From Streptomyces tendae (GTDB taxonomy: Bacteria; Actinomycetota; Actinomycetes; Streptomycetales; Streptomycetaceae): 64,000 nt of DNA. The DNA lies in contig NZ_BMUY01000004.1 in the NCBI RefSeq assembly GCF_014650435.1, positions 1 through 64,000 of the forward strand. The letters run 5' to 3'. The position numbers were made by a program, and so were the translations under genes. The notes beneath the pieces are model-generated. The model made no database searches. It saw nothing but the letters and a program-made list of their open reading frames with translations, and was not told where the DNA came from. This document shows positions 9,926 to 29,185 of the stretch, in pieces; the first letter of the stretch is position 1, and each line of letters opens with the position of its first letter.

Positions 9926-9929
9926 GGTG

Positions 9930-10198
9930 AACGTGGCCGCGAACATCATGAACCCTGCGATGAGCGTGACCGCGTTCAGCGCGCCGGTGATCTGAGTGAG
10001 GTGGTTGCCGGGCGGGGAGAGCACCTCGCCGGTCGCCCGGAGCCGGAAGGGGGCGGGCTGATCGGGAATGGCCACATAGGCGAGGGCGATCCACACCGGG
10101 ATGTACACGACCACCAGTAGCATCGCGAACCGGTTGCGGGCGTGTCCGATCAGCGCGTACCGCGATGCCGTGGCGAACAGGGACAGGTGCCGCCTCAC
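9930..10198 (-). pseudogene. ABC transporter permease, truncated N-terminal fragment
   Basis: About 90 residues of an ABC-2-like permease: RRHLSLFATASRYALIGHAR, two membrane spans (FAMLLVVVYIPVWIALAYVA and NAVTLIAGFMMFAAT), then loss of similarity where the TetR gene ends. It starts with GTG at 10198, overlapping the stop of the upstream ATPase as GTGA, so the two were once translationally coupled. Most of the membrane domain is gone. Confidence 0.6.
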
Positions 10199-10808
10199 GC
10201 CGCGGCCTCCGTAGGCCGTTCCTTGATGTGCAGGCGCCCGCCCTCCAGGCGCCAGAGCTGGTCCAGCCGGTCGATGTCGTACGCGAGGTGCGAGACGACC
10301 AGCACCGAACGCCCGGCGTCGCGCAGCCTGGTCGCCAGTTCCCAGAAGCGCAGGTAGGTCTCCCAGTCGAAGCCCTGGTAGGGCTCGTCCAGCAGGAGTA
10401 CGTCCGGTCGTGCATGAGGGCCAGGGTCAGGTTGAGCTTCTGCCGCGAGCCGCCGCTGAGCCGACCCGCGCGCTGGTCGAGGTACTCGGTGAAGGCCAGT
10501 GTCTCCATCACCTCCTCGGCCCGTTCGAGCCCGGTGAGGCCGAACGCGCTCCGGAAGAAGTCGAGATGCTGGCGGACGGTGAAGGAGTCGTCCAGCACCA
10601 TGGTCTGCGGACAGTAGCCGAACCTGCCGCTGTGGTGCACGGCCCCCCGGTCCAGACGGAGTTCACCGGAGAGGATCTTCAGCAGGGTCGTCTTGCCCGC
10701 ACCGTTCTCGCCGCCGATCCCGGCCAGGGTGCCGGGCTTCAGCCGGAGGCCGACGCCCCGCAGGACGGCATGCTGCCGGTAGGAATGGTGCGCATCATGG
10801 ACGTCCAT
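10195..10808 (-). pseudogene. ABC transporter ATP-binding protein, frameshifted
   Basis: The ATPase has Walker A (GGENGAGKTTLLKILSGE), the signature LSGGSRQKLN and, in a second frame, Walker B with its following loop (VLLLDEPYQGFDWETYLR) and the switch region VSHLAYD. The two halves are joined only if one base is restored near 10401-10411, inside the Walker B strand. The gene therefore looks dead, in line with the truncated permease after it, unless this is a sequencing error. It probably exported a lipid or drug. Confidence 0.7.
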
Positions 10809-11153
10809 CGCTTCGCTCCGTCGTACCTGGCCTGCGGTCCGCGGAACCGCTCCGCGCGTGCCCAACGAGTCGGCCGGGCGAGGGAAACGGCAGCCGGGAG
10901 AGCGGCCTCCTGCGGTGTCAACCTGGCGCCTGCCCGTCACGCGTGCGACGGGAAGCCTGCCCGAAACCGCCTCGGTCGCAGTGGCGGCGGCTACCGTGAC
11001 CGGGCTCCCGGAGGGGCGTACCCCTCGCGCCTCGTCCCGCTCCGGTGCCCGACGCAGTGTGACCAGCCCTCCCGTGCCGGTGCGGGGGCGGGGCCCGGCC
11101 ACGTGCGGGCGCGGGGCAGCAGGGGCCCGTGCCCGCGCCCGCACACCCGCTCA
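10809..11153. other. Intergenic, no gene seen
   Basis: About 345 bp between the dead ABC ATPase and the acyltransferase gene. An open minus-strand frame spans it but is Arg/Pro/Gly-rich with no recognisable fold, and the ATPase start at 10808 fits its family. No clear promoter or hairpin was identified. Confidence 0.5.
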
Positions 11154-12521
11154 TCATCGCCGCACGCTCTCCTCCAGCTCTCGCACGGCCTGTTCCCACA
11201 GCTCCGGCAGCAGCTCGCCCAGCGGCAGGGCGCGGTCCGCGACGAAGGACACCTCCGCCCAGTCGCCGAAGAACGACAGCCCCACTCCGCAGAGGTGTCC
11301 CGGCACGAGGAGCGGCAGCAGGGCCGTCCCCGTCACCCGGGTCTCCCCCAGGCTCCCCTTTTCGGCGAGCGGCATGGAGGTGGCCATGACGTTGGTGACG
11401 CGGGGGGACAGCATTCTGCGCAGGTACCACGCGGTGGGACGGTCCGGCATGTAGCGGACCAGGTCCTGAACGGCCTGTCGCCAGGTGTCGCCCCGCAGCT
11501 TCTGGGTCACTGCCATGATCCGGTCGAGCCGTCGCAGCGGCGCCTCCTCGTCCGGGGAACCGTCCGGGCGGCCCGGGGTGGGTCCAACCGGCAGGTCGAC
11601 CGGAAGGGCGAAGCAGCGGTTGCCCCAGGTCTGCTCCTCGTCGGCCCGCCGCGCGTCGACGGGCAGCACGGCCGTCACCCGGGGCAGTGGCACGCCGGAG
11701 CGGGCCGCCCACACCGACAACGCCCCGGCCAGCGCGGCGAGATGGGCGTCGTGGGCCGAGCCACCGCGTCCGGCGCCGATCAGCCGCAGGGTGTCCACGG
11801 GGACGCGCCCCCGCCACAGCCGCCGCTCACCGGCAGGGGCGAAGGCCGGGTCCGGGCGGTGTCCGCGTACGGCGAAGGTGCGCGCCAGGAACCTCGTGGC
11901 CAGCGCGGCTGCCGCGCCGAACCGCCGGGGCACGCCGACCACGCCGCTCCCGCCCGGCAGTGGACGCGCTGATGGCTCCCCGTCGCCCAGCATCGCGCGG
12001 AACGTCATGGCGGCGGCCGAGCCGTCCTGGCAGGCGTGGAGGAAGCGGTAGCAGAGGGCGTACGCGTCGGGTTCGTGGCCGTGGATCAGCCAGACCCCCC
12101 AGTAGGCGCCGGGCGCGAACGGGGCGTTGAGCGCGCTGTGCAGGGCGGTGTCCCAGTCGTCGGGTCCGTCGGCCACCACCTCGTACACGTGCCGGTCGAC
12201 GGGGAAGTCCTCGGACGGCTGCCACCCGGGCCGCCTGCCTCCCGTCACCCGGCTGGTGAGCAGCGGCAGTTCACCGAGCCGGAACGCCACGTACGCGCGC
12301 AGATCGGCCAGGCTCGGGGGCGGGCCGCTGAGATACGCGACGCCGCCCGCGTCCCAGCGGACGTCGGGGCGGCGGCGCTCCAGGTCGAGGAACGCGCGGT
12401 CGACCGCGTGGGTGGGATGACGGGGCGGTGGGACGGAACGCTTCGGCAGGTCGGACCCCGTAGAGGGGGCCGCCGGCGCGGTGGGCGGGTCGGACACGGT
12501 GGACTGCTCGGAGTCGGGCAT
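11154..12521 (-). CDS. WS/DGAT-type (condensation-fold) O-acyltransferase
   Basis: A 455-residue member of the wax ester synthase/diacylglycerol acyltransferase superfamily. The HHxxxDG active-site motif appears as LHACQDGSAAA, keeping the second His (His162) with Asp166-Gly167 but having Leu for the first His. Other family blocks are GNRCFALPVDLPVG in the middle and RVTNVMATSMPLAEKGSLGE plus LCGVGLSFFGDWAEVSFVAD near the C-terminus. These enzymes transfer a fatty acyl group from CoA (or ACP) to an alcohol, usually at the membrane surface. ATG at 12521 has GGGAG ten bases upstream. It is divergent from the thioester reductase and PUFA synthase genes, so it is a good candidate for esterifying their product; this is inference from position. 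Confidence 0.75.
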   Translation of the reverse strand: MPDSEQSTVSDPPTAPAAPSTGSDLPKRSVPPPRHPTHAVDRAFLDLERRRPDVRWDAGGVAYLSGPPPSLADLRAYVAFRLGELPLLTSRVTGGRRPGWQPSEDFPVDRHVYEVVADGPDDWDTALHSALNAPFAPGAYWGVWLIHGHEPDAYALCYRFLHACQDGSAAAMTFRAMLGDGEPSARPLPGGSGVVGVPRRFGAAAALATRFLARTFAVRGHRPDPAFAPAGERRLWRGRVPVDTLRLIGAGRGGSAHDAHLAALAGALSVWAARSGVPLPRVTAVLPVDARRADEEQTWGNRCFALPVDLPVGPTPGRPDGSPDEEAPLRRLDRIMAVTQKLRGDTWRQAVQDLVRYMPDRPTAWYLRRMLSPRVTNVMATSMPLAEKGSLGETRVTGTALLPLLVPGHLCGVGLSFFGDWAEVSFVADRALPLGELLPELWEQAVRELEESVRR

Positions 12522-13281
12522 GCGGGTGCGGGCTCCCGTTCGGGCCGAGGCGGTCGCGATGACCACCGGTGGTGGGACAGAGGTACGGCGACGCGCGAAG
12601 GGCGGGGACTCCGGCGGCCGGGCGCCCCATCCGTCCGAGCCGGTCGCGCTGCCGGGACCGGCGGCTCACCAGGATGACCGGCGGCCGGGACAGCGTCGGC
12701 CGGCTGCGGCGGCCCGTCCCGGCTCCGCGGGCGGGTACCGGACGGTTCCGCGACGGTCGCCGCCCACCGGCTGTCCGCACCTCGCGGCCTCGCTTTCCCG
12801 TGCCGCGGCGGGGTCCCGGTGCCCGGCGAGCGCGGCCGTGTCCCGGGTCGCGGCCCGCGAGGGTGTCATCCTGGGGTGCCGCGACGAGTTCCCCCGAAAG
12901 AGGGACCGGACCGAGCGGCGTACGCCGGCGCCACCCACGGTCGAGCGAGATCCTCCGTTCGGGTGGCCAGGGCGGATCGATGGGTGTGTTCCGCCCGTCG
13001 TCTGCCATCGTGTGGAAGGCGCCGGAGATCACCGGGGTTCGAAGGCCCGGTGAGCGCCGTCCGGGACGAGCGTCGGGAGAGCCGGGGGGGGAGCGGCAGC
13101 ACGGATCGGCGGGACGATTCGGACCGTGCGCGGTGCGATCGCCGACGACGACCCGCGCCGCGGGACGGTCGACGCCGTGCCGCTCCTGTCCGCTTCCGGT
13201 CCGCCGCACCGCCGGTGCTCCGCCGCCGCACGCCCCGCATGGCAGGGGACCGCCCTTCTCACCGCTCTGGGAGCCACGCTC
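12522..13281. promoter_or_regulatory. Divergent control region of the lipid cluster
   Basis: A 760-bp gap between the divergent acyltransferase and thioester reductase genes. I see no credible gene; long open frames here are Arg/Pro/Gly-rich shadows of high GC. A candidate operator, CACCGGG-N9-CCCGGTG, lies at 13030-13052. The length suggests complex control, but no sigma consensus stands out. Confidence 0.4.
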
Positions 13282-14490
13282 GTGCACGTCGCACTCACCG
13301 GCGCCACCGGATTCCTCGGACTGCGCCTGTTACGTCGTCTGCTCGACACGCACGCGTGGGTGACGGTCCTGGCCCACGCCGGTTCGGGCGACGCGCTGCA
13401 CCGCATCACCCGTTCCCTCGAACTGACGGGTGCGCCGAGCGCGTTCCTCGCACGACTGCCAAAGCGGCTGAGGGTGGTGGAGACCGATCTGGCGCTGCCC
13501 CGGCTGGGCCTGTCCGCACGGGCGTTCCGAGAGCTGGCCGACAGCCTCGGCGCGATCTGGCACAGCGCGGGAAGCATCCATCTGGAAGGGGACCTTCCCG
13601 AGCTGCGACGGACCAATGTCGAAGGCACCCGCCACGTCCTGGAATTGGCGGCCGCCGGGCGCGCGGAACCGGTGGTGCGCCATGTGAGCACCGCGTTCGT
13701 GGCCGGGGCGCGGCGCACCGGGGTGGCGTACGAGGACGAACTGGACGACGGCGCCGGTTTCGAGAACGCCTACGAACAGTCCAAGTACGAGGCGGAGCTG
13801 CTGGTTCACGCCTGGTCCCGCGAGCACGGGCGACCGGTCTTGGTGCTGCGGCCGAGCATTCTCGTCACGGATGTGCCCCCGCACCCGGAGCTGCCTTCGC
13901 ACCCCCTGCAGGTGGTCGAGCGCATCCTGCGCGACGCGCGACAGGTCACCGTCGCCGCACCACCGACCGCCCCGGGCACGGCCACCGGGGCTCCGGACGG
14001 TCCTTCCCGCGGCGCTCCCGGGTCGCCGGGCCCCGGGGCTCGGCCCCGGGTACGGGCGGTGGGGCACCCGCACGGGCGGCTGAACCTGTTACCGGTGGAG
14101 CACGCGGCCGACGTCATGGTCCGCCTGGCCGAACTGCCGTCCTCACATGGGGTCGACACGTACCACGTCGTCCATGACCGCGATGTCCCCGTGCCCACCG
14201 TCGTCGCCCTGCTGGAACGGCTCGTTCCCCTCTCGATCGACCTGGTCGACGCCAAGCCGGAGGACCCTTCGGCGTTGGAGACCATGATCGATTTCTACCC
14301 GGGCATCACGGCCTACCTCACCCACCGGCGGAGGTTCGACGACACCCGGGTGAGGACCCTGCTCGGTCCGGCGGCGGTCTGCGCTCCGGTCGGTCTCGAT
14401 CGGCTGTGGTCCGGACTGGCCCCGAGGAGCGGGGCGCTCCCCCGGCCCCCGCACACCCCACCCGCTCCTGCGCCCGCACCGTGCGCCTGA
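13282..14490 (+). CDS. Stand-alone thioester reductase (extended SDR, NAD_binding_4)
   Basis: A 402-residue protein with the fold of thioester-reductase (R) domains from NRPS/PKS and carboxylic acid reductases. It has VALTGATGFLGLRLLRRLLD (NAD(P)-binding GxxGxxG), WHSAGSIHLEGDLPELRRTN, HVSTAFVAG, catalytic YEQSK (Tyr164, Lys168) and LRPSILVTD. It would reduce a carrier-bound or CoA acyl thioester to an aldehyde or alcohol. GTG at 13282 has GGGAG upstream; longer starts back to 13126 add an unlikely Arg/Pro-rich tail. Two rare TTA codons (13330-13332, residue 17; 14089-14091, residue 270) make translation depend on bldA tRNA. It lies 69 bp before the PfaD-like gene on the same strand. R domains usually sit at the end of a megasynthase, so a free one beside a PUFA synthase is notable. 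Confidence 0.8.
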   Translation: MHVALTGATGFLGLRLLRRLLDTHAWVTVLAHAGSGDALHRITRSLELTGAPSAFLARLPKRLRVVETDLALPRLGLSARAFRELADSLGAIWHSAGSIHLEGDLPELRRTNVEGTRHVLELAAAGRAEPVVRHVSTAFVAGARRTGVAYEDELDDGAGFENAYEQSKYEAELLVHAWSREHGRPVLVLRPSILVTDVPPHPELPSHPLQVVERILRDARQVTVAAPPTAPGTATGAPDGPSRGAPGSPGPGARPRVRAVGHPHGRLNLLPVEHAADVMVRLAELPSSHGVDTYHVVHDRDVPVPTVVALLERLVPLSIDLVDAKPEDPSALETMIDFYPGITAYLTHRRRFDDTRVRTLLGPAAVCAPVGLDRLWSGLAPRSGALPRPPHTPPAPAPAPCA

Positions 14491-14559
14491 GCTTCCCGTA
14501 CGTCGCAGACGGCGTACGACCGACCAGCAGCAACCGTGTCCCGTCCCGTTGGAGCTTCC

Positions 14560-16143
14560 GTGTCCGTTCTCGCCGCTCCCCGCGCCCTTGCCGTGCGTCC
14601 GCCGGTCTTCTCCCCCGAGGGGATCACCGACCGTGTCCGGCTGATCCGGGAACCCGTGCACGTCGTCAGCGGGCCGGACGGCCGGGAGCTGGGCCTCGCG
14701 ACCGGGGCACCGCCTGCCGGTCCGGTGCTGGGCACGCTGCCGCCGCTGTACCCCGAGTGGCTCGGCGGCCGGACCTTCTGCGAGGCGCACGGCGTCCGCT
14801 TCCCCTATGTGGCGGGGGAGATGGCGAACGGCATCGCGACCACCGGCATGGTCGCGGCGATGGCGCGGGCGGAGATGATCGGCTTCTTCGGTGCGGGCGG
14901 CCTGCCCCTCCCGGAGGTGGAGCGGGCTGTGCACTCCCTGGCGCAGGAGCTGGCGTCCCGCACGAACTGGGGAGTCAATCTCATCCACTCACCGGCCGAG
15001 CCGGAGCTGGAGTGGCGGGTCGCGGAGCTTCTGCTGCGGTGCGGTGTCCCCCGGATCTCGGTGTCGGCGTTCATGGAGCTGACCCCTGCGGTCGTCCTGT
15101 GCTCGGCGCGGGGCCTGCGCCGGGGTGCGGACGGCGGCGTCGTCCGGCGTACGCGGCTGCTCGCGAAGCTCTCCCGTCCCGAGGTGGCCGAGAGGTTCCT
15201 CTCCCCGGCCCCGACCGCTCTGCTGGACCTCCTTGTCGCGCGGGGCAGCCTGACCCGCGAGGAGGCGGCCCTGGCGGCCCTGGTGCCGGTGGCCGAGGAC
15301 ATCACCGTCGAGGCGGACAGCGGCGGGCACACCGACAACCGGCCGTTGTCGGTCCTGCTGCCGCGGATCGCCGCCCTGCGCGACACGGTCTGCCGGCGGT
15401 TCGGGTACCGGCGGCCGGTCCGCCTCGGCGCGGCCGGGGGCCTCGGCACCCCGGACGCGGTGGCCGCCGCCTTCGCTCTCGGCGCGTCCTACGTCGTCAC
15501 CGGTTCGGTGAACCAGACGGCGGTCGAGGCCGGTCTGTCCGACGAGGCCAAGGCGATGCTGTGCGACGCGGACGTCGCCGATGTCGCCATGGCGCCGTCG
15601 GCCGACATGTTCGAGCTGGGCGTGAAGCTGCAAGTGCTGTCGCGGGGCACGATGTTCGCCCGGCGGGCCGGCCGCCTGTACACGGCCTACCGTGACCACG
15701 GCTCGCTGGAGGAGATCCCGCAGGCGCTGCGTACCGCGATCGAACGCGACGTGCTGGGCGCCCCGTTCGAAGAGATCTGGCAGCACACGCGTGCCTTCTG
15801 GGAGGAGCGCGATCCGGCGGAAACCGTCCGTGCGGAGGCCGACCCCCGGCACCGCATGGCCCTGGTGTTCCGCTGGTACCTGGGCAGTTCCAGCCGGTGG
15901 GCGATCACCGGGGAGAGCGCGCGGCGGGCCGACTACCAGATCTGGTGCGGACCGGCGATGGGCGCGTTCAACCGGTGGGCGGCCGGCACCTTCCTGGCAA
16001 AACCGCCCCACCGGTCCGTGACGCAGATCGCCCTCAACCTGCTGGAAGGGGCCGCGACACTCACCCGCGCCCATCAACTGCGCACGTACGGCGTTCCGTT
16101 GCCTTCCGAGGCGTTCACCTACACGCCGCGTGAGCTGGCATGA
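14560..16143 (+). CDS. pfaD: PfaD-type trans enoyl reductase (FMN, nitropropane dioxygenase-like)
   Basis: About 527 residues. The TIM-barrel FMN enzyme is recognisable from VAGEMANGIATTGMVAAMAR, GFFGAGGLPLPEVERAV, NWGVNLIHSP, EADSGGHTDNRPLSVLLPRI, the phosphate-binding GAAGGLGTPDAVAAAFALGA and VVTGSVNQTAVEAGLS. The C-terminal MALVFRWYLGSSSRWAI and DYQIWCGPAMGAFNRW blocks are specific to PfaD/PUFA enoyl reductases. PfaD acts in trans on ACP-bound enoyl chains of PUFA synthases. GTG at 14560 has GGAG five bases upstream; GTG at 14536 is an in-frame alternative. Its stop overlaps the next start (ATGA at 16140), so it is coupled to the PfaA-like gene. It is the myxobacterial Pfa1 equivalent by order and content. 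Confidence 0.9.
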   Translation: MSVLAAPRALAVRPPVFSPEGITDRVRLIREPVHVVSGPDGRELGLATGAPPAGPVLGTLPPLYPEWLGGRTFCEAHGVRFPYVAGEMANGIATTGMVAAMARAEMIGFFGAGGLPLPEVERAVHSLAQELASRTNWGVNLIHSPAEPELEWRVAELLLRCGVPRISVSAFMELTPAVVLCSARGLRRGADGGVVRRTRLLAKLSRPEVAERFLSPAPTALLDLLVARGSLTREEAALAALVPVAEDITVEADSGGHTDNRPLSVLLPRIAALRDTVCRRFGYRRPVRLGAAGGLGTPDAVAAAFALGASYVVTGSVNQTAVEAGLSDEAKAMLCDADVADVAMAPSADMFELGVKLQVLSRGTMFARRAGRLYTAYRDHGSLEEIPQALRTAIERDVLGAPFEEIWQHTRAFWEERDPAETVRAEADPRHRMALVFRWYLGSSSRWAITGESARRADYQIWCGPAMGAFNRWAAGTFLAKPPHRSVTQIALNLLEGAATLTRAHQLRTYGVPLPSEAFTYTPRELA

Positions 16144-19100
16144 GCGGCCCCGCCGCGGCACCGTCCGCCGTCGCCCGACCCCGAGGAGAGACCATGTCCG
16201 GCTCCACCCCCCGCCAGGTCCCCATCGCCGTGGTCGGCGTCGGGGCGCTGGTTCCGGGCGCCACGGACGCAGCCGGCTACTGGCGGGTCGTGACCGGCGG
16301 CCGCGACCTGATCACCGAGGTCCCCGCCTCCCGCTGGCGGGTGGAGGACCACTACGATCCGGACCCGTCCGCCCCCGACAAGACGTACGCCCGCCGGGGC
16401 GCCTTCCTTCCCGAGGTGGACTTCGACCCGATGGCCTACGGGGTGCCTCCCGCCAATCTGCCGGCCACGGACACCTCCCAGCTGCTCGCCCTCATGGTCG
16501 CCGACCAGGTGCTGAGGGACGCCGGCGGGACGTCCGGGATCGACCGGGACCGGACCGGCGTTGTCCTCGGGGCGGCCGCCCTCGAACTGCTGCCGCACAT
16601 GTACGGGCGTTCCCAGCGCCCCACGTGGCTGGCGGGGCTGCGGGAGAGCGGGCTCGACGAGGCCGAGGCGCAGGCTGTGTGCGACCGCATCGCCGCCCGC
16701 TTCGAGCCGTGGCGCGAGTCGACCTTCCCGGGGCTGCTGGGCAACGTCGTCGCGGGACGGATCGCCAACCGGTTCGATCTGCACGGCGTCAACCACACCA
16801 CCGACGCCGCCTGTGCCAGCTCGCTGGCCGCCCTGTCGACGGCGGTCGGAGAACTGTCCCTGCGCCGGGCGGACCTGGTCATCAGCGGCGGCGTGGACAC
16901 CGGGAACGACATCGGCATGTTCCTCTGCTTCTCCAAGACGCCCGCGCTCTCCCCCAGCGGCGACTGCCGCCCGTTCGCGGAGGCGGCGGACGGCACGATG
17001 CTCGGTGAGGCGGTCGTGATGTACGCCCTGAAGCGTTTGTCCGACGCAGAGCGCGACGGCGACCGGATCCACGCCGTGATCAGGGGCATCGGCACCTCGT
17101 CGGACGGCCGGAGCACAGCGATCTACGCCCCGCTGCCCGAGGGCCAGGAACGGGCCCTGCGACGCGCGTACGAGGAGGCCGGCTACCCGCCGGAGACCGT
17201 GGAGCTGGTCGAGGCGCACGGCACCGGCACGAAGGCCGGGGACACCGCGGAACTGGCCGCGCTCAACGCGGTGTTCGGCGCCTCGGGACGTCCTGACGGC
17301 CAGTGGTGCGCCATCGGCTCGGTGAAGTCGCAGATCGGGCACACCAAGTGCGCGGCGGGTGCGGCGGGGCTGCTCAAGGCAGTGATGGCCCTCCACCACA
17401 AGGTCCTCCCACCCACAGTCAAGGTCGAACGGCCGAACCCGGCAGCCGCCGCCCCTGACGGCCCGTTCTACGTGAACACGGAGGCCCGGCCGTGGGTGCG
17501 GCCGGCCGGTCACCCGCGCCGGGCAGCGGTGTCGAGTTTCGGCTTCGGCGGCAGCAACTTCCACGTCACCCTGGAGGAATACACGCCGCCGACCGTGCCC
17601 ACCCCCTCGTCGGGCACGCAGGCGGACACCCCTGCGCACCCCGCGCCGAAGAACACGGGCCGCCCTGCCCTGCGCCACCGCACGGCGTCGAGCGAGCTGG
17701 TTCTGTTCGCCGCCGCTTCGCCGTCCGCCCTGAAGGAACAACTACCCGAGGACGGACGGCCGCTGACCGAGCTGGCGAGGGAGAGCCACGCCGCGTTCTC
17801 GCCCACCGCCCGGGTGCGGCTGGCCGTCGTTGCCACCGACACCGATGACCTGCGGAGGAAGTACGCGCAGGCGCTCGCGCACATCCGGCGGCGCCCCGAG
17901 GCGTCGTTCTCGGCCCCTTCCGGAATCCGGTACGCGCACGGAGAGTCCGCGCCCGGCCGCATCGGCTTCCTGTTCCCCGGGCAGGGCTCCCAGTACGTCG
18001 GGATGGGGGCCGGGCTCGCGATGCTGGCCCCGGCCGCGCAGGCCGTGTGGGACCGGCTGGGCTCCACCCGCTTCGACGGAAGGCCGCTGCACCGGGCCGT
18101 GTTCCCGCCGCCCGCCTTCACCGAGGAGGAGCGCGCCGCCCGAGCGGCCCTGCTGAACGCCACCGAGTGGGCTCAGCCGGCGCTGGCGGTGCACGCGCTC
18201 GCGCTGCTGGCGGTGGTGCGGGAACTGGGGCTGCGGCCGGACTGCGTGGCCGGCCACAGTTTCGGCGAACTGGTGGCGCTGCACTGCGCGGGCGCCCTGG
18301 ACGCGGAGTCGCTGGTCGGGCTGGCGCGTCGCCGCGGCGAGCTGATGCGGGAGGCGGCGGCCACCCCGGGCGCGATGCTGGCGGTGGCGGCGGACCGCGA
18401 ACGCGTGGCGCAGGTACTGGCCGGCGGTGGCTTCGAAGACATCTGGCCCGCCAACCACAACTCGCCCCGTCAGACGGTGCTCTCAGGTTCGGTGGCGGCG
18501 GTCGAAAGGGCGCGGAGCGCCTTCTCGGCCGCGGGGATCGCCTCCCGCGGACTGTCCGCGTCGACCGCCTTCCACAGCCCGCTGGTCGCCCCGGCCGTCG
18601 AGCCGCTCGCCGCCCACCTGCGCACGGTGACGTTCTCGGAACCCCGCATCGAGGTCTACGGCAACACGGACGCGGCGCCCTACCCCTCCTGCCCGGACGC
18701 GGTGCGCCGCCGGGTCGCCGGTCATCTCGCCTCGCCGGTCCTCTTCCAGGACCAGATCGAGGCGATGTACGCGGCGGGGGTGCGGACCTTCGTGGAGGTC
18801 GGCGCGGGCGCCACGCTCACGGGCCTGGTCGGGCAGATCCTCGCCGACCGTGAGCATACGGCCGTGCCCCTCGACCGGCCGGCCGGGGCGGGCGTCGACA
18901 CCTTCCACGCCGCGCTCGGTGAACTCGCCGTACTGGGCGTTCCCCTCGACCTCGTCCCCCTCTGGACCCCCTACGCATCGCCCGGAACACCAGCGAAGGA
19001 GCGCGAGCCCCGAATGACCGTGAAGATCAGTGGAGCCAACTACGGTCAGCTCCCGCCCTCCGGAACCCCACACGTCGAACCGACGCACGCTGCGGAGTAC

Positions 19101-22100: not shown

Positions 22101-22403
22101 GCGGGCCTGCGGTCCCTGGGCTGGCCGGGCGGGCGCGGCCCGCTGGATCCGGCCGCCGTGGACGGCGCGCTGCAACTCGCGCTGCTCTGGGGCGAGAAGG
22201 TGCTCGGGTCGGCGACCCTGCCGATGGCCGTCGCGGAGTGCAGGGTGTACCGGCGGGGCCCGGTGGACGACGCCGTGCGCTGTGTGGTGCGGGGACGCAA
22301 GGTCCACGACACCGGGGCACGCTGCGACGCCGCGCTGATCGGACCCGGCGGGTCCGTCCTGCTGGAGCTGACCGGCGTCGAACTCGTCAGCCGCCCCTCC
22401 TGA
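16140..22403 (+). CDS. pfaA: PfaA-like PUFA synthase subunit: KS-AT-ACP-KR-DH
   Basis: A 2087-residue megasynthase. Domains in order: KS, residues about 10-475, with Cys225 (TDAACASSL), His360 (EAHGTGT) and His401 (GHTKCAAG); AT, about 600-905, with Ser707 in GHSFGE; a conserved helix 1054-1090 (QTADTHLACQRLLTDSH); a single ACP, about 1195-1275, with phosphopantetheine Ser1233 in LGVDSIK; KR, about 1370-1810, with TGGARG (1552-1557), Ser1726 and Tyr1739; and a PKS-like double-hotdog DH, about 1830-2087, with His1845 in the HxxxGxxxxP motif and Asp2008. Canonical PfaA proteins have several tandem ACPs, so one is unusual. Long Ala/Pro linkers flank the ACP. The gene overlaps pfaD by ATGA, and pfaC follows after 47 bp. 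No PPTase gene is in the window. Product chain length and unsaturation cannot be predicted. Confidence 0.9.
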   Translation: MSGPAAAPSAVARPRGETMSGSTPRQVPIAVVGVGALVPGATDAAGYWRVVTGGRDLITEVPASRWRVEDHYDPDPSAPDKTYARRGAFLPEVDFDPMAYGVPPANLPATDTSQLLALMVADQVLRDAGGTSGIDRDRTGVVLGAAALELLPHMYGRSQRPTWLAGLRESGLDEAEAQAVCDRIAARFEPWRESTFPGLLGNVVAGRIANRFDLHGVNHTTDAACASSLAALSTAVGELSLRRADLVISGGVDTGNDIGMFLCFSKTPALSPSGDCRPFAEAADGTMLGEAVVMYALKRLSDAERDGDRIHAVIRGIGTSSDGRSTAIYAPLPEGQERALRRAYEEAGYPPETVELVEAHGTGTKAGDTAELAALNAVFGASGRPDGQWCAIGSVKSQIGHTKCAAGAAGLLKAVMALHHKVLPPTVKVERPNPAAAAPDGPFYVNTEARPWVRPAGHPRRAAVSSFGFGGSNFHVTLEEYTPPTVPTPSSGTQADTPAHPAPKNTGRPALRHRTASSELVLFAAASPSALKEQLPEDGRPLTELARESHAAFSPTARVRLAVVATDTDDLRRKYAQALAHIRRRPEASFSAPSGIRYAHGESAPGRIGFLFPGQGSQYVGMGAGLAMLAPAAQAVWDRLGSTRFDGRPLHRAVFPPPAFTEEERAARAALLNATEWAQPALAVHALALLAVVRELGLRPDCVAGHSFGELVALHCAGALDAESLVGLARRRGELMREAAATPGAMLAVAADRERVAQVLAGGGFEDIWPANHNSPRQTVLSGSVAAVERARSAFSAAGIASRGLSASTAFHSPLVAPAVEPLAAHLRTVTFSEPRIEVYGNTDAAPYPSCPDAVRRRVAGHLASPVLFQDQIEAMYAAGVRTFVEVGAGATLTGLVGQILADREHTAVPLDRPAGAGVDTFHAALGELAVLGVPLDLVPLWTPYASPGTPAKEREPRMTVKISGANYGQLPPSGTPHVEPTHAAEYGPRADAVPAVAVPAPAVALPSQPPGNVPLPPVYVPAAASSQQGFGPSHPAEAPADACPVIGDDRQLAVESIHRQTADTHLACQRLLTDSHMAFLRMTETTLAALLGAPVPDAVPDVTAPAALPLPRSGGPLDVPAAAAPPVTAPAPAAVVGAATPYPVPEASAPAASHAVRPSVSEPAPPTEAPARDASAPDRSVSEPAPSELSSSELSSSELEELLLSVVADLTGYPTAMLHVDMDLEADLGVDSIKRVEILSAVRRRVGDVAVGDAGRLGKLRTLREITAALASGAPTAGSAPEPDVPGVPAPRADAFEPSPAKAREAAPFSTTVDVPAVRGDGSGGSDGDAGADGWTPLTRLVPRMVESPASGLATAGLLDGPVVVSGEDVTGCPVVGLVARKLAERGVDATAVAEVPEGARGVIHLGGLSASGTPNEAREVHRSALRAARALAPRAAEGGGLFVTVQDTGGDFGLGGHAPGRAWLGGTAGLARTAAKEWPDVQVRVLDCERGGRDDEEVADAIVCELLEGGADTEVGLRADGTRALLRMVPAPLTPGGAPRIGENSVIVATGGARGVTAAALLDLARTHRPRIVLLGRTQAAAEPAGLASATDERALTRLLAERARDDAEGSSPARIAEEARRILAAREVRATLAGLEAAGSPARYVRVDVRDADALTAALREVRATWGPVTGIVHGAGVLADKRIADKTDEQAEPVMATKVDGLRALLTATADDPLDTILLFSSVAAVFGNAGQSDYAMANEVLQQVASAEQARRPDCLVRCVAWGPWQGGMVTPVLAAHFGRAGVPLIPPAQGAAACTAELDGAAGEARVVLTAGDGPAAADERLRAQVLVSSDTLPQLADHAPAGVPVLPVALVLNWFAGAAAAWLPTEGPLVLRDLRVYRKYDLPELEGGGHRLTVLGSRGAPGSPDGLEAELRGEEGPAHFRAVVDTGDGAPDRSSWDTPADLKPLDVAAPYHGGVLFHGPRFHALREVRGVSEHGAEATVAGLRSLGWPGGRGPLDPAAVDGALQLALLWGEKVLGSATLPMAVAECRVYRRGPVDDAVRCVVRGRKVHDTGARCDAALIGPGGSVLLELTGVELVSRPS

Positions 22404-22450
22404 CCGGGCGCTCTCCCTCCTGTCCGAACCCGCCGTGAAGTGAGACCCGC

Positions 22451-25400
22451 ATGCGTTTCGAACCGATCGCCATCGTCGGCCGGGGCTGTGTCCTGCCCGG
22501 CGCACTGGACCCGGACGGGTTCTGGGAGAACGTCGCCGCCGGGCGCACGAGTCTGACGGCGGCCCCGGAAGGCCGGTGGCGGCTGCCGCGCCACCGGGTC
22601 ATGGGCACGGTGGACGACCACCTCGACCGCACCTGGACCGACATCGGGGGGTACGTCGAGGGGTTCGAATCCGTCTTCGACCCGGAAGGCTTCCTCGTCC
22701 CCCCGGAGCGGATCGCGACGCTGGACCCGCTCTTCCACTGGGTGCTCCACGGGGTACGGCAGGCGCTCACGGAGGCGGGCCGCACCGCACCGCTGGGGCG
22801 CGGCGGGCTGATCCTGGGCAACCTGTCGTACCCCACCCCCACCGGGGCGGCCTTCGCCGAACACGTCTGGCTGTCGGCGCAGCGCCCGGAGCTCCGCGAC
22901 GCGCTGCTGACGGGTGGTCACCACCCCCGCCCCGATGCCCGCAACCGCTTCTCCTCCGGTCTCCCGGCCCTGCTCGCGGCCCGCGCGCTCGGGCTCGGGG
23001 CCGGGGCGTGGTCCCTCGACGCGGCCTGCGCCTCCTCGCTGTACGCGATCAAGCTGGCGTGCGACCGCCTGCACGACGGCACGGCCGACCTGATGGTGGC
23101 CGGTGCGGTCAGCCGGCCCGACCCTCTCTACCTGCACGTGGGGTTCTGCGGGCTGTCCGCGACGAGCCGTACGGGGCGCAGCCGCCCCTTCGACCGGGAC
23201 GCCGACGGGCTGGTGCACGGTGAGGGCGCCGGGTTCGTCGCCCTGGCGCGGCTCTCCGACGCCCGCGCGGCGGGGCTCCCCGTGTTCGGCGTGATCCGCG
23301 GGGTGGGGCTGTCCAACGACGGGCGGGGGTCCGGTCTGATCAGCCCGTCCGAGGAGGGCCAGGTGCGGGCGATGCGCCTGGCGTACGAGGTGGCGGGCGT
23401 CGCTCCCGAGTCGGTGTCGCTCGTCGAGTGCCATGCGACGGGAACCCCGGTCGGCGACGCGGTGGAGGCACGGGGCATGGCCCGGGTCTTCGGGGCCGCC
23501 GACGACGTGCCGATCGGTTCGGCGAAGTCGAACGTCGGGCATCTGCTGGCCTCGGCGGGCGTGGTGGGGCTGCTGAAGGTGCTGGGTGCGATGCGCTCCG
23601 GGGTGCGCCCGGCGACACTCGGCGCGCGTCGGCCGCTGGACGCCCTGTCGGGCACGCCGTTGCGCGTCCTGGACACGGCGGAGCAGTGGGCGGGACCCCG
23701 CAGGGCGGCGGTCAGCGCGTTCGGGTTCGGCGGGACCAACGCCCACCTGCTCCTCGACGACCCGGACGACGCTCCCCCGCCCTCCGGGCCCCGGCCGGTG
23801 TACGGACCGCGGCCCAGCACGCGGCGGACCGCACCGGCGGACCGGGCACCGCAGGACCCGGTGCCGGGACCCGACGCGCCGGACACCCCGGCCGCGGCGG
23901 CCGACAGCGGTCCGCCGGGCGACCGTATGCCCGGGGCGTGCGCGGTACCCGTGGCGATCGTCGCCATCGGGGCGCGGGTCGGAGAGGGAACGTCGGTCGA
24001 GGACCTCCGCCGGGCGGTGCTGGGCGGTGGACGGCGCGGCCCGGTCGCGGAGATCGCCGTGCAGCTGACGGGCCTGTGCTTCCCCCCGCTGGCCCTGGAG
24101 CGGACCGTACGCCATCAGCTCCTGGTGCTGGAGGCCGCCCGCGAAGCCGCCCTGACGGTGAACCTGCCCCGGGAGCGGACCATGGTGGTCATCGGTACCG
24201 GCGTGGACCCGGAGGTGGCCCGGGCGGGCGCGCGCTGGCGGATTCCCCACTGGCTGGAGGAGTCGGGTGTGCCCGTTACGGCGGCGTGGACGGACCTCGC
24301 CCGCAACGCCTTCACCCAACCCATGACGGCGGAGGGGGTGGTGGGCAGCATGCCGAACCTGGCGGCGAACCGCATCAGCACCCAACTGGACCTGGCGGGA
24401 CCGAGTTTCACGGTGTCCGCCGAGGAGGCGTCCGGGCTGGTGGCGCTGGAGGCCGCGGCCCGCGCCCTGCGGTCGGGGGAGGTCGACGCCGCGCTCGTCG
24501 GCGCCACCGACCTGTCCTGCGAAGCGGTCCACCGGGCCGCCGTGCGGGAGTCCGCTCCCGGCGTGGAGCCCGGTGACGCGGCGGTCGTCCTGGTCCTCAA
24601 GCTGCTGGACGCCGCCCGCCGGGACGGGGACACCGTCGTCGCCATACTGGACGAGGAAGCCGGCGACGAACCCGACATGGTCATCGGCGACGGCCCGGAC
24701 GCGGGATTCGATCCGGCGTCCGCCTTCGGGCGTGCCCATGCGGCATCCGGGCTGGTGTCCGTCGCCGTCGCGGCGCTCTCGCTCCAGCACCGCGCGGTCC
24801 CCCGCCCCGACGCGCCCGCCGACACGGCGGCCGTCGCCCACACCGCGCGGGTCGTCGCCGTACCGGCGGAGGGGCCGGCCACGAGCGTCCGGCTGCGCGC
24901 CGGGGACCCCCGGCCGTGGCTGCCGGGGCCCGCCCCGCGCCTGCGCGTCTTCTCCGGGGCGGACCGCGCTCAGGTGCTGGCCGCACTGGAGGCCGGGACC
25001 GAGTCCTCGGCGGGCCCGGCGCGGCTGGCTCTCGTGGCGGACGGCGGCACCGCCTGGGCGGAGCGCCGCGAAGCGGCCCGTCGCTGGCTGGCTCAGGGCG
25101 GGGCCCGCCCGGCGGATGTCCTGTACCGGGACGCGCCGGTCGGCGGCGAGACCGCCTTCGTGTACACCAACGGCTCGGCCGCGTACCCCGGGATGGGCCA
25201 CGCGCTGACGCTGGCGTACCCGTCGCTGGGCGAGAGCGTCCGTGCGGGGCACCGGGCGATCGGGACGCGGCTGCGCTCCGGGAGGGGGCCCGGCGTGCTC
25301 GACCAGATCTGGTCCGTCGCCGAACTGGCGGTCTTCCACACCGTGTTCAGCCGTGAGGTGCTGGGCCTGCGGCCGGACGCCGCGATCGGCTACTCCTCGG

Positions 25401-28400
25401 GCGAGTCGACGGCACTGGTCGCGCTGGGCGCGTGGCCGGACGCCTCGGGGCTGTACGAGGCGACGCGGGAGAGCGGGCTGTTCACCACGGAGCTCACGGG
25501 TGAGCTGCGGGCGGTGCGGCGCTACTGGCGGCAGCGCGGCATCGACGGCGACCGCTGGTCGAGCTATCTGGTCGCCGCGCCGCTGGAGGCCGTCCGCGCG
25601 GAGCTCGCCGGGGAGCGGGCGGTCCATCTGATGGCGGTGAACGCGCCGGGGGTCTGCGTCGTCGGCGGCGAGTCCGAGGCATGCGCGGCCGTGGTCACCC
25701 GGCTGGGCGTGGACCGGGCGATCGAGCTGGACTACGACATGGCCGCCCACGCCCCGGAGTTGGCGGAGGTCCGCGAGGTGTGGCGGGAGGCCCACCGCCG
25801 CCCCACGGTCGATGTGCCGGGGGTCCGGTTCTACAGTGCGGCCACCGGCCGGGCGTACCGTCCGACGACCGAGCGGGCCGCGGAAGCGCTCACCGCTCAG
25901 GGACTGGGCACGATCGACTTCGCGGCGACGATCGAGCGGGCGTGGGCGGACGGTGTCCGCGTCTTCGTGGAGCACGGGCCCCGGAAGCTGTGCACCGGCT
26001 GGATCAAGCGGGTACTCGGGGACCGGGAGCATGTGGCCGTCGCGCTGGACGCCCCGGACGACGCCGGGCTGCGGAATCTGTGCCTGGCCGTCGGCGAACT
26101 CGTGGTGGCCGGGGTGCCGGTGCGGGCCGACGCGTTGACCGCCCGGCTCGCCGAGGCCGCTACCGGTCTCCCAGCCCCCGGCCCCACCGTCACCGTTGCC
26201 GTACCCCCCACGCCCTGCCTGCCGCCCCTGGAGCGCGCCGTGACCGTTCTGCCCCGGGCCCCCGAGCTGGCACCGGTGCCGGCCGAGCGGCCCGCTCCCG
26301 CGGAACGGCCCGGTGCCCCGGTTGCCGCCGTATCCGCCGCCGCGGTGGGGCCGGTGGCCCGGTTGTCCGACCCGGCGTCCCCGGCGTTGGGGTCGCCGGA
26401 GGTCGCGGGCACGGTCGTCCGGCAGAGCCGGCGGGCCGCCCTGGTGCACGAGGAGATCATGGCCGCGCACGCGGAAGCCCACCGGCGGTTCCTGGAGGTG
26501 TCCGCGCTGGCCGTCACGGCGCTGACGGCGGGCGGCAGGTCGGACGCCGGACGCGCGGCGGTCTCCCTGCCCGCGGGAGGCGTTGTCCCCGTACCGCCGT
26601 CCGCCGCCCTCCCCGTACCACCGCCGTGCGCCCCGCCCGACCCCGTGCGGCCACGGGGCCCGGTATCAGCCCCGCGCCCCGGCACGGCTCCGGCTCCGGT
26701 CCCTGTCCCTGTCCCTGTCCCTGGGGCGAAGCCGGTGTTCGACCGGGCCCAGTTGGAGCACCTCGCCTCCGGGGAGATCTCCGCGCTGTTCGGTCCGCGC
26801 TTCGCCGAGCAGGACCGGTACGCGGTGCAGACCCGGATGCCGGGACCACCCATGCTCTTCGCCGACCGGGTCACCGCCATCGACGCGGTGCCCGCGGCGC
26901 TCGTCCTGCCCGGGCCGGTCCGCACGGACGGGCGGATCTGGACGGAGACCGACGTCCTGACCGACAGCTGGTACCTGGACGCGACGGGACGCATGCCGGC
27001 CGGCGTGCTGATCGAGGCGGGACAGGCCGATCTGCTGCTGCTCAGCTGGCTGGGGGCGGACCTGCTCAACCGGGGCGAGCGCGCCTACCGCCTGCTCGGC
27101 TGCGAGGTGACGTTCCACGGCGGCCCGCCCCGCCCCGGCGACACCTTGTGCTTCGAGATCCATGTGGACGGCCACGCGGAGGCGGGCGGGGTCCGGCTGG
27201 CCTTCTTCCACTACGACTGCTACGTGGACGGTGAGTTGCGGCTCAGCGTCCGCGAGGGCCAAGCCGGCTTCTTCACCCCCGCCGAACTGGCCGCCGGCGG
27301 CGGGGTGCGCTGGGACCCGGCCGAGCACCCTCCCGGCGACGACCTTCCGTTCGACCCTCCGGCCGTACGCTGCGAGCGGACCAGCTTCGGCACGGACCGG
27401 GTGCGGGCCCTGGCGCAGGGGTCGCCCGCGGAGTGCTTCGGGCCGGGCTGGGAGGCGACGGCAGCCCATGTGCGGACACCCCTGCTCGACGGGGAGCGGC
27501 TGCGCCTGCTGGACGAGGTCACCGTGTTCGACCCGGTCGGCGGGCCGTGGGGCCGGGGGTATCTGCGCGCCGAGACGGCGGTGTCCCCGGACGACTGGTT
27601 CTTCACCGGCCACTTCAAGAACGACCCCTGCATGCCTGGCACCCTGATGCTCCAGGGCGGTCTCCAGGCCATGGCCTTCTATCTGACGGCCTCGGGCCAC
27701 ACCGTCGACCGGGACGGCTGGCGTTTCGAACCGGTCGACACCCAGCCGTCCCGGGCCAAGTGCCGGGGCCAGGCGACCCCGGAGTCCCGGAGGATCGTCT
27801 ACGAGGTGTTCGTCCGGGGCGTCTCGGCCGGGCCGGTGCCGACGCTCCACGCCGATGTCCTCGGGTCGGTGGACGGCAGGAAGGCGTTCCTGGGGCGCGG
27901 CATGGCACTCCGGCTGGTGCCCGACTGGCCGCTGTCGCAGTGGCGGGTCTCGGGGCCGCCCGCCGTGCAGGAGGACGGTGCGCCGGTGCCGCTGCCCCGG
28001 CTCGGCGGACTGTCCGGGCACCGGGAGGAAAAGGCGGTGGCCGTCGCCGCCGACGGGTTCCGCTTCGACTACGCGTCGTTGCTGGCATGCGCCTGGGGCA
28101 GGCCCAGCGAGGCGTTCGGCACCATGTACGAGCCCTTCGACGGCACCCGCAGGGTCGCCAGGCTCCCCGGGCCGCCCTACCACTTCATGAGCCGGATCGT
28201 CTCGGTGGACGGCGTCCAGGGCGGCATGCGGGAGGGCAGCGTCGTCGTCGCCGAGTACGACGTACCGGAACGGGCGTGGTACTTCGAGCAGAACCCGTCC
28301 CGGCGCATGCCGCTCTCGGTCCTCATGGAGGTCGCGCTGCAGCCCTGCGGGTGGCTGGCCTCGTACGTCGGCAGCGCGACAACCAGCGAGCAGGACCTGC

Positions 28401-29185
28401 TGTTTCGCAACCTGGACGGAGCGAAGACGGTCACCGGCGAGGTCACCGCCGGGACGCGCACGATCCGCACCCGGTCCGACCTGACCCGTGTCTCGCGCAG
28501 CGGAGACATGATCATCGAGTCGTTCCGGGTGGTGTGCACGGCCGACGACGCGCCCCTCGCCGAACTCACCACGGTCTTCGGCTACTTCCCCCGGTCGGCG
28601 TTCGACGACCAGCAAGGGCTGCCGGTCCCGGCCGAGGAGCGCGCCCGCCTCGACGAGCCCTGCGACCGAGTGGTCGACCTGACCACCCGGCCCGCCCGCT
28701 ACTGCGCCGGGGAGCCGCGCCTGCCGGGCCGCATGCTGCTGATGCTGGACCGGGTCACGGGCTCCTGGCCGGAGGGCGGAAGCGCGGGGCTCGGCCGACT
28801 GCGGTCGGAGAAGGACGTGCGCCCGGATGCCTGGTTCTTCCGGGCCCACTTCTTCCAGGACCCGGTGCAGCCCGGCTCACTGGGGGTCGAGGCCATGTGC
28901 CAGCTGCTCCAGTACCACCTGATCGAAGGCGGCGCGGCGGACGGGATCGTCCACCCCCGATTCGAGCCGGTGCTGCCCGGCCGGGAGACGGTGTGGACGT
29001 ACCGGGGCCAGATCACCCCCGCCAACCGGCTGATCCGGGTGGACATGGACATCGTGGAGACCGGTACGGACGCACGCGGGCCCTATGCCGTCGCGGACGC
29101 GACGCTGTGGGGCGACGACACGTGCATCTACCGGGTGCGGGGGCTGGGGATGCGGGTGGTGTCGGGCCCCCCGCCCGTACGGTGA
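22451..29185 (+). CDS. pfaC: PfaC-like PUFA synthase subunit: KS-CLF-AT-DH-DH
   Basis: A 2244-residue megasynthase. KS, about 1-430, has Cys193 (SLDAACASSL), His328 (ECHATGT) and His364 (NVGHLLASAG). CLF, about 500-800, is KS-like with the cysteine replaced (FTVSAEEASG, Glu659 at that position). An acyltransferase, about 895-1220, has Ser982 in GYSSGES. A helical segment near 1330 (HEEIMAAHAEAHRRFLEV) precedes two FabA-type DH units built from four hotdogs: WYLDATGRMPAGVLIEAG, WFFTGHFKNDPCMPG (His1721), WYFEQNPSRRMPLSVLMEVA and WFFRAHFFQDPVQPG (His2133). The KS-CLF-AT-DH-DH order matches myxobacterial Pfa3 minus its C-terminal AGPAT domain. The missing acyl-release activity could be supplied by the thioester reductase and the WS/DGAT protein nearby (inference). 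Confidence 0.9.
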   Translation: MRFEPIAIVGRGCVLPGALDPDGFWENVAAGRTSLTAAPEGRWRLPRHRVMGTVDDHLDRTWTDIGGYVEGFESVFDPEGFLVPPERIATLDPLFHWVLHGVRQALTEAGRTAPLGRGGLILGNLSYPTPTGAAFAEHVWLSAQRPELRDALLTGGHHPRPDARNRFSSGLPALLAARALGLGAGAWSLDAACASSLYAIKLACDRLHDGTADLMVAGAVSRPDPLYLHVGFCGLSATSRTGRSRPFDRDADGLVHGEGAGFVALARLSDARAAGLPVFGVIRGVGLSNDGRGSGLISPSEEGQVRAMRLAYEVAGVAPESVSLVECHATGTPVGDAVEARGMARVFGAADDVPIGSAKSNVGHLLASAGVVGLLKVLGAMRSGVRPATLGARRPLDALSGTPLRVLDTAEQWAGPRRAAVSAFGFGGTNAHLLLDDPDDAPPPSGPRPVYGPRPSTRRTAPADRAPQDPVPGPDAPDTPAAAADSGPPGDRMPGACAVPVAIVAIGARVGEGTSVEDLRRAVLGGGRRGPVAEIAVQLTGLCFPPLALERTVRHQLLVLEAAREAALTVNLPRERTMVVIGTGVDPEVARAGARWRIPHWLEESGVPVTAAWTDLARNAFTQPMTAEGVVGSMPNLAANRISTQLDLAGPSFTVSAEEASGLVALEAAARALRSGEVDAALVGATDLSCEAVHRAAVRESAPGVEPGDAAVVLVLKLLDAARRDGDTVVAILDEEAGDEPDMVIGDGPDAGFDPASAFGRAHAASGLVSVAVAALSLQHRAVPRPDAPADTAAVAHTARVVAVPAEGPATSVRLRAGDPRPWLPGPAPRLRVFSGADRAQVLAALEAGTESSAGPARLALVADGGTAWAERREAARRWLAQGGARPADVLYRDAPVGGETAFVYTNGSAAYPGMGHALTLAYPSLGESVRAGHRAIGTRLRSGRGPGVLDQIWSVAELAVFHTVFSREVLGLRPDAAIGYSSGESTALVALGAWPDASGLYEATRESGLFTTELTGELRAVRRYWRQRGIDGDRWSSYLVAAPLEAVRAELAGERAVHLMAVNAPGVCVVGGESEACAAVVTRLGVDRAIELDYDMAAHAPELAEVREVWREAHRRPTVDVPGVRFYSAATGRAYRPTTERAAEALTAQGLGTIDFAATIERAWADGVRVFVEHGPRKLCTGWIKRVLGDREHVAVALDAPDDAGLRNLCLAVGELVVAGVPVRADALTARLAEAATGLPAPGPTVTVAVPPTPCLPPLERAVTVLPRAPELAPVPAERPAPAERPGAPVAAVSAAAVGPVARLSDPASPALGSPEVAGTVVRQSRRAALVHEEIMAAHAEAHRRFLEVSALAVTALTAGGRSDAGRAAVSLPAGGVVPVPPSAALPVPPPCAPPDPVRPRGPVSAPRPGTAPAPVPVPVPVPGAKPVFDRAQLEHLASGEISALFGPRFAEQDRYAVQTRMPGPPMLFADRVTAIDAVPAALVLPGPVRTDGRIWTETDVLTDSWYLDATGRMPAGVLIEAGQADLLLLSWLGADLLNRGERAYRLLGCEVTFHGGPPRPGDTLCFEIHVDGHAEAGGVRLAFFHYDCYVDGELRLSVREGQAGFFTPAELAAGGGVRWDPAEHPPGDDLPFDPPAVRCERTSFGTDRVRALAQGSPAECFGPGWEATAAHVRTPLLDGERLRLLDEVTVFDPVGGPWGRGYLRAETAVSPDDWFFTGHFKNDPCMPGTLMLQGGLQAMAFYLTASGHTVDRDGWRFEPVDTQPSRAKCRGQATPESRRIVYEVFVRGVSAGPVPTLHADVLGSVDGRKAFLGRGMALRLVPDWPLSQWRVSGPPAVQEDGAPVPLPRLGGLSGHREEKAVAVAADGFRFDYASLLACAWGRPSEAFGTMYEPFDGTRRVARLPGPPYHFMSRIVSVDGVQGGMREGSVVVAEYDVPERAWYFEQNPSRRMPLSVLMEVALQPCGWLASYVGSATTSEQDLLFRNLDGAKTVTGEVTAGTRTIRTRSDLTRVSRSGDMIIESFRVVCTADDAPLAELTTVFGYFPRSAFDDQQGLPVPAEERARLDEPCDRVVDLTTRPARYCAGEPRLPGRMLLMLDRVTGSWPEGGSAGLGRLRSEKDVRPDAWFFRAHFFQDPVQPGSLGVEAMCQLLQYHLIEGGAADGIVHPRFEPVLPGRETVWTYRGQITPANRLIRVDMDIVETGTDARGPYAVADATLWGDDTCIYRVRGLGMRVVSGPPPVR

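Follow-up and report, generated by a model that had tools for sequence, protein, structure and literature searches.

A polyunsaturated fatty acid-type synthase cluster of Streptomyces tendae with a linked thioester reductase and a WS/DGAT-family homologue: a candidate route to wax-ester-like lipids

The gene cluster considered here lies in the first 64,000 nucleotides of contig C4 of the 8.9-Mb genome of Streptomyces tendae, a stretch referred to below as the window; it combines a polyunsaturated fatty acid (PUFA)-type synthase (PfaD, PfaA, and PfaC) with a stand-alone thioester reductase (TR) and a homologue of the wax ester synthase/diacylglycerol acyltransferase (WS/DGAT) family (WSD). Its architecture matches that of the orphan "eicosapentaenoic acid" (EPA) cluster SCO0124–0129 of S. 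coelicolor A3(2), classified as a Type L secondary lipid synthase (Shulse and Allen, 2011; PMC3098273); according to the same text, PUFA production in S. coelicolor has not been demonstrated. The EPA proteins of S. rubrogriseus, one of 2,074 amino acids with ketosynthase (KS), acyltransferase (AT), acyl carrier protein (ACP), ketoreductase (KR), and dehydratase (DH) domains, the other of 2,240 amino acids with KS and AT, are described as highly similar to SCO0126–0127 (PMC5932044), and transcription of the EPA cluster appears to be timed with sporulation, peaking at 60 h (PMC2374992). Compared by published description, the S. coelicolor cluster and the one in the window share the domain order of PfaA and the adjoining 2,240-amino acid KS/AT protein (PMC5932044), as well as pfaD as the 5'-most pfa gene and a fused pfaBC (PMC3098273); the printed order of pfaBC, however, is KS, chain length factor (CLF), DH2, and AT (PMC3098273), versus KS-CLF-AT-DH2 here. 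The passages of these two papers that describe the S. coelicolor cluster mention neither a TR nor a WS/DGAT.

A TR accompanies PUFA-type synthases in two further systems. The hgl synthase of cyanobacteria is likewise of PUFA type, has fused KS-CLF-AT, yields alkyl products, e.g., hexacosanediol (PMC3098273), and is encoded with the thioester reductase HglB (PMC8064123), just as TR is co-encoded here; it differs in that HglB carries its own ACP (PMC8064123), whereas the window TR gives no PP-binding match, and in that this Type F synthase is described without dehydratase/isomerase (DH/I) domains (PMC3098273). The zeamine synthase of Serratia and Dickeya is PUFA-like and has recruited a TR domain, but within a larger set with an aminotransferase, and it yields a polyamino alcohol linked to a peptide–polyketide (PMC13291983); Streptomyces clade V of the same study works with polyketide synthase (PKS) and nonribosomal peptide synthetase genes, none of which was recognised beside the window cluster. 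The WS/DGAT wax ester synthases of Acinetobacter and Marinobacter share with WSD the predicted fold and the HxxxDG motif, but identity in structural alignments is 16–19%, the window WSD stays under the family cut-offs, and it is linked to a synthase rather than to storage metabolism. For phthiocerol dimycocerosates of mycobacteria, a polyketide-type alcohol is esterified by PapA5, which has the same fold as WSD, and exported by the MMPL protein MmpL7. An MMPL transporter gene also follows PfaA in two loci of our set (L123 and L138; L and G numbers denote loci and genomes of this analysis), whereas the mycobacterial synthase is of another type, and PapA5 resembles the fold of WSD (Z 23.6) less closely than WS/DGATs do. 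In the hgl pathway, the alcohol is glycosylated, not acylated. The first-pass annotation of the window knew of no described pathway with this combination; as far as TR and a PUFA-type synthase are concerned, HglB (PMC8064123) and zeamine (PMC13291983) are precedents, while the literature searched (mainly open papers, no preprints) yielded no report of TR and WS/DGAT together with pfa genes.

We favour, with moderate confidence, a reading in which TR releases the product of the synthase reductively and WSD then O-acylates it to a wax-ester-like lipid; this order of events, proposed by the first-pass annotation, is the best-supported one, and that annotation's interpretation finds partial support. 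The iterative secondary lipid synthase (PfaA/PfaBC/PfaD) would build a long-chain acyl-ACP; TR, using NAD(P)H, would release the finished chain as an aldehyde or alcohol; and in most members of the family WSD would join the alcohol to an acyl group, yielding a wax-ester-like neutral lipid, probably exported by an ATP-binding cassette (ABC) or MMPL transporter, as found in relatives. Reductive release of acyl-ACP by TR is likely, and acylation of the released alcohol by WSD fairly probable; the end product would be an ester, so that the cluster probably makes ester lipids, not free fatty acids. While the chemistry is deduced from sequence and a structural model, release followed, where WSD is present, by O-acylation is the most economical account of the gene linkage, the catalytic motifs, and the predicted fold.

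The five genes claimed by the first-pass annotation, i.e., those for a WS/DGAT homologue, an R-domain protein, and PfaD, PfaA-like, and PfaC-like proteins, are present on the strands it gave, in the order WSD, TR, PfaD, PfaA (KS-AT-ACP-KR-DH), and PfaC (KS-CLF-AT-DH), and all are open frames in the window strain (Table 1). The GC content of the cluster is 71–77%, and among named genomes Streptomyces hyderabadensis is the closest at this locus (97% DNA identity across 13.4 kb). PfaD scores 688 bits against TIGR02814 (cut-off 449) and PfaA 1184 bits against TIGR02813 (cut-off 1010), with Pfam KS, AT, ACP, and KR domains found in the latter; TR scores 160.8 bits against PF07993 (NAD_binding_4, cut-off 20.1) and 141.4 bits, under the cut-off of 213.35, against TIGR01746. 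PfaC contains KS, CLF, and FabA-like DH/I domains; VSAEEASGL replaces the Cys motif in the CLF, and the C-terminal part has four FabA-like hot-dog motifs, the His motif being kept in two. Tandem ACPs, typical of PUFA-type synthases but not required (PMC3098273), were not found: there is one ACP match in the window PfaA, and at most one ACP motif across 64 scanned PfaA sequences, many of them partial.

When the longest frames are taken, the PfaD and PfaA genes have 4 bases in common, and fewer than 50 bases separate TR from PfaD and PfaA from PfaC; a codon-score gene caller sets the starts of PfaD and PfaA about 55 bases downstream of these. Under either set of starts, TR probably belongs to one operon with the synthase. 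The TR start is probably at 13282, where conservation begins; the upstream candidate at 13126 is rejected, since relatives align from 13282 onward only. A long frame at 12819–14177 and other overlapping long frames are also rejected as genes, being skipped by the codon-score caller.

Table 1. Features of the cluster and its immediate surroundings (window coordinates; ~, approximate).
Feature	Position	Strand	Remarks
ABC transporter remains	9926–10940	−	ATPase in two overlapping pieces of different frames (10374–10940, 10198–10407), permease cut; accompanies the cluster in relatives
WSD, WS/DGAT-family O-acyltransferase homologue	11154–12566	−	HxxxDG retained (RFLHACQDG); alternative start 12521
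WSD–TR intergenic region	12567–13281		~0.7 kb, genes divergent; presumed two-way promoter region
TR, extended short-chain dehydrogenase/reductase	13282–14490	+	TGATGFLG, HVSTAFV, YEQSK
PfaD-family enoyl reductase	14536–16143	+	start uncertain, 14536 or 14593
PfaA-like synthase	16140–22403	+	start uncertain, 16140 or 16194
PfaA, KS	~16221–17426	+	
PfaA, AT	~17967–18938	+	
PfaA, single ACP	~19746–19949	+	
PfaA, KR	~20784–21452	+	
PfaA, PKS-type DH	~21612–22388	+	
PfaB/PfaC fusion (PfaC)	22451–29185	+	KS ~22460–23623, CLF, PfaB-type AT ~25361–26026, FabA-like units ~26843–29137

The linkage of TR to pfa genes extends far beyond the window strain. In a genus sample of 150 genomes, the window genome included, TIGR02814 is over the cut-off in 36, and all 37 over-cut-off PfaD places besides the window were examined with their flanks. 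Seven of the 37 are of the window type (PfaD identity at least 62%), and TR is immediately upstream of PfaD in five of these (L040, L041, L042, L045, L060); a further one (L063, genome G048) has a window-type PfaD-PfaA operon that includes a stand-alone DH-like gene and whose last gene is a TR belonging to another clade. Among the other 30 pfaD loci of the genus, one (L075) has a TR-like match (33%), and WSD is seen in none of the stretches examined.

Scanning named genomes with an alignment of six TRs gave 57 loci (the scan is pattern-based and misses relatives, and the counts are of loci returned). PfaD comes after TR in 48 of them, directly in 44 and with WSD between or fused in four (L123–L126). 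Of the remaining nine, four have a contig end within 1 kb of TR (L091, L094, L128, L130), and five have no PfaD (L117, L119, L129, L131, L132), L131 and L132 being remote TR matches (39% and 31%). Genes in the loci were called by codon score, not taken from annotation, and L124 and L125, where TR and WSD are merged, were entered by hand.

In a class sample of 394 genomes, PfaD is matched at E ≤ 1e-80 in 46 and TR at E ≤ 1e-30 in 21. All 12 TR matches with E < 1e-110 besides the window lie just upstream of PfaD; 11 share a contig with it, and in G403 the two genes sit at two contig ends. None of the eight weaker matches has a PfaD match on its contig. Most PfaD-bearing genomes of this sample have no TR of the pfa kind, since other PfaD types exist. 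Ten of the 12 strong TRs belong to family code f18, taken as Frankiaceae because the TR of L168 is identical to that of Parafrankia soli (L122), and show TR-PfaD-PfaA, WSD being absent from the stretches examined; nor was PfaC observed in the stretches examined for Frankiaceae-type loci or in L063. One genome (G133, locus L121) is present in both genome samples. Given this recurrence across dozens of genomes, and the few PF03007 places in the window genome (a whole-genome search lists only two others, the window WSD itself being below the E limit), the gene arrangement is not due to chance.

The TR tree, from which L041, L045, and L172 (partial or duplicate) are omitted, places the 64 rows labelled pfa in one clade of 66 (support 98) that spans Streptomyces, Pseudonocardiaceae, and Frankiaceae; L091 and L094 are labelled pfa by kinship only, as their contigs stop before any PfaD could appear. 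The two other rows in the clade are from Nocardia (L117, L119), without PfaD; here, TR is found beside a P450-like gene (by eye) and a more distant KS-AT protein. Pairwise distances between TRs agree with those of PfaD (r 0.95, n = 59), of PfaA KS-AT (r 0.98, n = 55), and, within Streptomyces, of WSD (r 0.95, n = 29), with 0 of 2000 shuffles as high in each case, although these correlations ignore species-tree kinship; seven duplicate or partial rows and rows without PfaD are omitted, and, for WSD, also L102 and four Pseudonocardiaceae rows.

The window TR retains the NAD(P)-binding GxxGxxG motif and the S/T-Y-K triad. Across 70 TR rows, the Y-K pattern is present in 67 and all three patterns in 53; part of the shortfall reflects start regions that the gene caller had cut off. 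The nearest solved structure by sequence is MxaA (4u7w). TR is predicted to reduce a carrier-bound thioester.

WSD adjoins TR in 32 of the 44 resolvable loci among the 48 with TR and PfaD (four are unresolvable). Among the seven window-type loci of the genus sample, it adjoins the cluster in L040 and L042, while in the genomes of L041 and L045 a WSD is encoded on a different contig, close to its end or right at it; the stretches examined for L055, L060, and L063 contain none, the genomes of the latter two having more distant WSDs elsewhere. SCO0123 of S. coelicolor is a WS/DGAT homologue as well; a literature search on SCO0123 gave no paper. The first-pass expectation that both flanking genes stay with the pfa genes in relatives is borne out very firmly for TR (48 of 57 loci), but for WSD only in the above 32 of 44, and the latter seems to have been recruited repeatedly.

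All 26 aligned WSDs, distant ones included, have the His, Asp, and Gly of HxxxDG. The first His of the longer HHxxxDG form is Leu in the window WSD and His in many relatives; the second His is the required one. PF03007 is matched at E ≤ 0.001 in 25 of the 26, the window's included, and the WSDs of S. violaceorubidus, Actinophytocola, Saccharothrix, and Allokutzneria are over its cut-off; those tested are under that of TIGR02946. The AlphaFold2 model of the window WSD (mean pLDDT 80.4, pTM 0.82) has WS/DGATs as top fold matches (6chj_A, Z 30.6, rmsd 3.7, 342 aligned residues; 7nxg, Z 29.2), followed by the dehydratase AzeD (Z 27.5) and condensation domains (Z 26.5); Foldseek and VIA-align also give other same-fold families (condensation, BAHD-like) among their matches. 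A profile sequence search against solved structures gave no match at E ≤ 0.01. By this model, the window WSD has the WS/DGAT fold, and by sequence it is divergent from storage-lipid WS/DGATs.

In two Allokutzneria genomes (L124, L125), TR and WSD form one open frame of 784 residues with no stop, followed by PfaD; read from the conserved start of TR, both products match PF07993 and PF03007 over the cut-off, in the first of them at residues 6–208 and 392–534, respectively. A sequencing slip is unlikely, as the fusion is common to two genomes, and direct hand-over between the enzymes is suggested. The order TR-WSD-PfaD-PfaA is found in Actinophytocola (L123) and Saccharothrix (L126). In the WSD tree, a quick tree with weak deepest branches (53) and without rows of at most 380 residues (L102, L109), the Streptomyces clade has 32 rows (support 100), the Pseudonocardiaceae group four (support 75), and a group of second copies four (support 100). 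The approximately unbiased (AU) test rejects a single clade of Streptomyces and Pseudonocardiaceae WSDs (p-AU 1.1e-5) and, less strongly, of Streptomyces and second-copy WSDs (p 0.025), where both joint tests were chosen after seeing the quick tree and the groups were named from gene layout. The former rejection suggests separate recruitment: on two or more occasions, it seems, TR-pfa clusters acquired an acyltransferase of this one family. The second WSD homologue is beside the first and convergent to it (L084, L091, L094, L170), which may mean two acylations.

Several observations weigh against reductive release followed by acylation. The window WSD scores 20.5 bits against PF03007 (cut-off 23.6) and 97 bits against TIGR02946 (cut-off 310), and no dedicated aldehyde reductase was recognised among the window genes adjoining the cluster. 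WSD is absent in 12 of the 44 resolvable clusters (L096, L103, L105, L106, L108, L110, with 1.9 kb of upstream sequence only, L116, L118, L120, L121, L122, L127), and none is near TR in the Frankiaceae-type loci examined (11 loci, 10 genomes), although WSD matches do occur at other places in the Parafrankia genome that carries L122; hence, constant presence of WSD is rejected, and not every cluster encodes its own candidate esterifying enzyme. The WSD homologue of L130, outside the 26-member alignment, has no HxxxDG pattern. One window-type locus (L055, genome G060) has PfaD-PfaA-PfaC with no TR within the flanks examined; its upstream genes are a P450 and a monooxygenase-like gene. The Ser and His of the PfaC AT are kept in four of five aligned PfaC, making it a possible release enzyme. 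The limits given above for the distance correlations and for the choice of AU tests count on the same side.

The PfaC AT is the basis of an alternative in which this PfaB-type domain hands off or hydrolyses the chain, giving a (polyunsaturated) fatty acid, while TR and WSD have other substrates or come in at a later stage. The domain retains GYSSG, with Tyr adjoining Ser, and an AAH motif, resembling PfaB proteins, which are described as terminal acyltransferases, others being reported to hydrolyse (PMC12895367); the first-pass list of known exits, thioesterase or internal AGPAT, thus lacked one whose domain is present here. The S. coelicolor cluster is, moreover, named for EPA in print, but PUFA formation has not been demonstrated there (PMC3098273). 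TR is tied to PfaD in all three of Streptomyces, Pseudonocardiaceae, and Frankiaceae, and the PfaC of Saccharothrix algeriensis lacks an AT domain although its cluster retains TR and WSD; the sole significant AT-like match in the 20-kb stretch searched is in the neighbouring PfaA. This single genome hints that the AT may be dispensable where TR is present, and we consider release as a free acid improbable. It is likewise doubtful, if conceivable, that TR yields a long-chain alcohol or aldehyde and WSD acylates another acceptor (a chain hydroxyl, sugar, or diol) or acts like other members of its fold: WSD is divergent, AzeD, condensation domains, and PapA5 share the predicted fold, the second WSD of some loci hints at two acylations, and hydroxyls could be introduced by the flavin monooxygenase (FMO)-type enzyme that 13 of the 57 loci encode, but WS/DGATs head the list of fold matches and the TR-WSD fusion suggests direct hand-over. 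That TR and WSD are accidental neighbours from another pathway, as might be thought from the 12 clusters without WSD and the window-type cluster without TR, is very improbable and largely refuted by the class-sample linkage, the named-genome counts, the single TR clade, the agreement of distances, and the fusion, i.e., by conservation and co-inheritance.

Accessory genes of the window strain, unlike the five core genes, are damaged. The ABC permease ends after 91 of 291 residues, and the ABC ATPase is frame-shifted; the permease gene is found in 21 of the 57 TR loci of named genomes. The FMO-type monooxygenase gene, located between the ABC ATPase and WSD in the 13 relatives that carry it, is missing from the window, with a clean join at 11026, where homology to L040 and L076 breaks off. 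The left contig edge carries a transposase-like gene (by eye; 1285–2139), a beta-lactamase-family gene (3431–4438), and a DDE_5 transposase gene (4646–6091), a few kb from the break in cluster homology. In L118, which has no WSD, a divergent methyltransferase gene occupies its position.

TR and WSD are also found near each other without PfaD, beside other KS genes in L129, L134, and L146 and with no KS gene in L133. MMPL-like genes (by eye) and single KS genes are present in L129 and L134, and a large type I PKS in L146. These four loci may represent a broader class of clusters for ester lipids. The window's own genome contains one more locus (L135, C5:402000–421900) with two TR homologues, a divergent WS/DGAT, and a KS, as well as KSIII-like, small ACP-like, and alpha-keto acid dehydrogenase-like subunit genes (all three assigned by eye from the first residues).

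For the family as a whole, the conserved TR, the frequent WSD, and the TR-WSD fusion predict a chemical class other than that implied by the "EPA" label. We can imagine, as a speculation with rather long odds, that these clusters are a widespread actinobacterial counterpart of the heterocyst-glycolipid pathway, making long-chain alcohols, and wax esters where WSD has been recruited, that would coat differentiated cells, namely spores in Streptomyces and nitrogen-fixing vesicles in Frankiaceae, of which ten sampled genomes have TR-PfaD-PfaA; on this view, EPA would not be what the S. coelicolor "EPA" cluster makes. Reductive release with capping of the alcohol, by a sugar in cyanobacteria and by an acyl group here, may be a scheme that PUFA-type synthases of differentiating bacteria follow in general.

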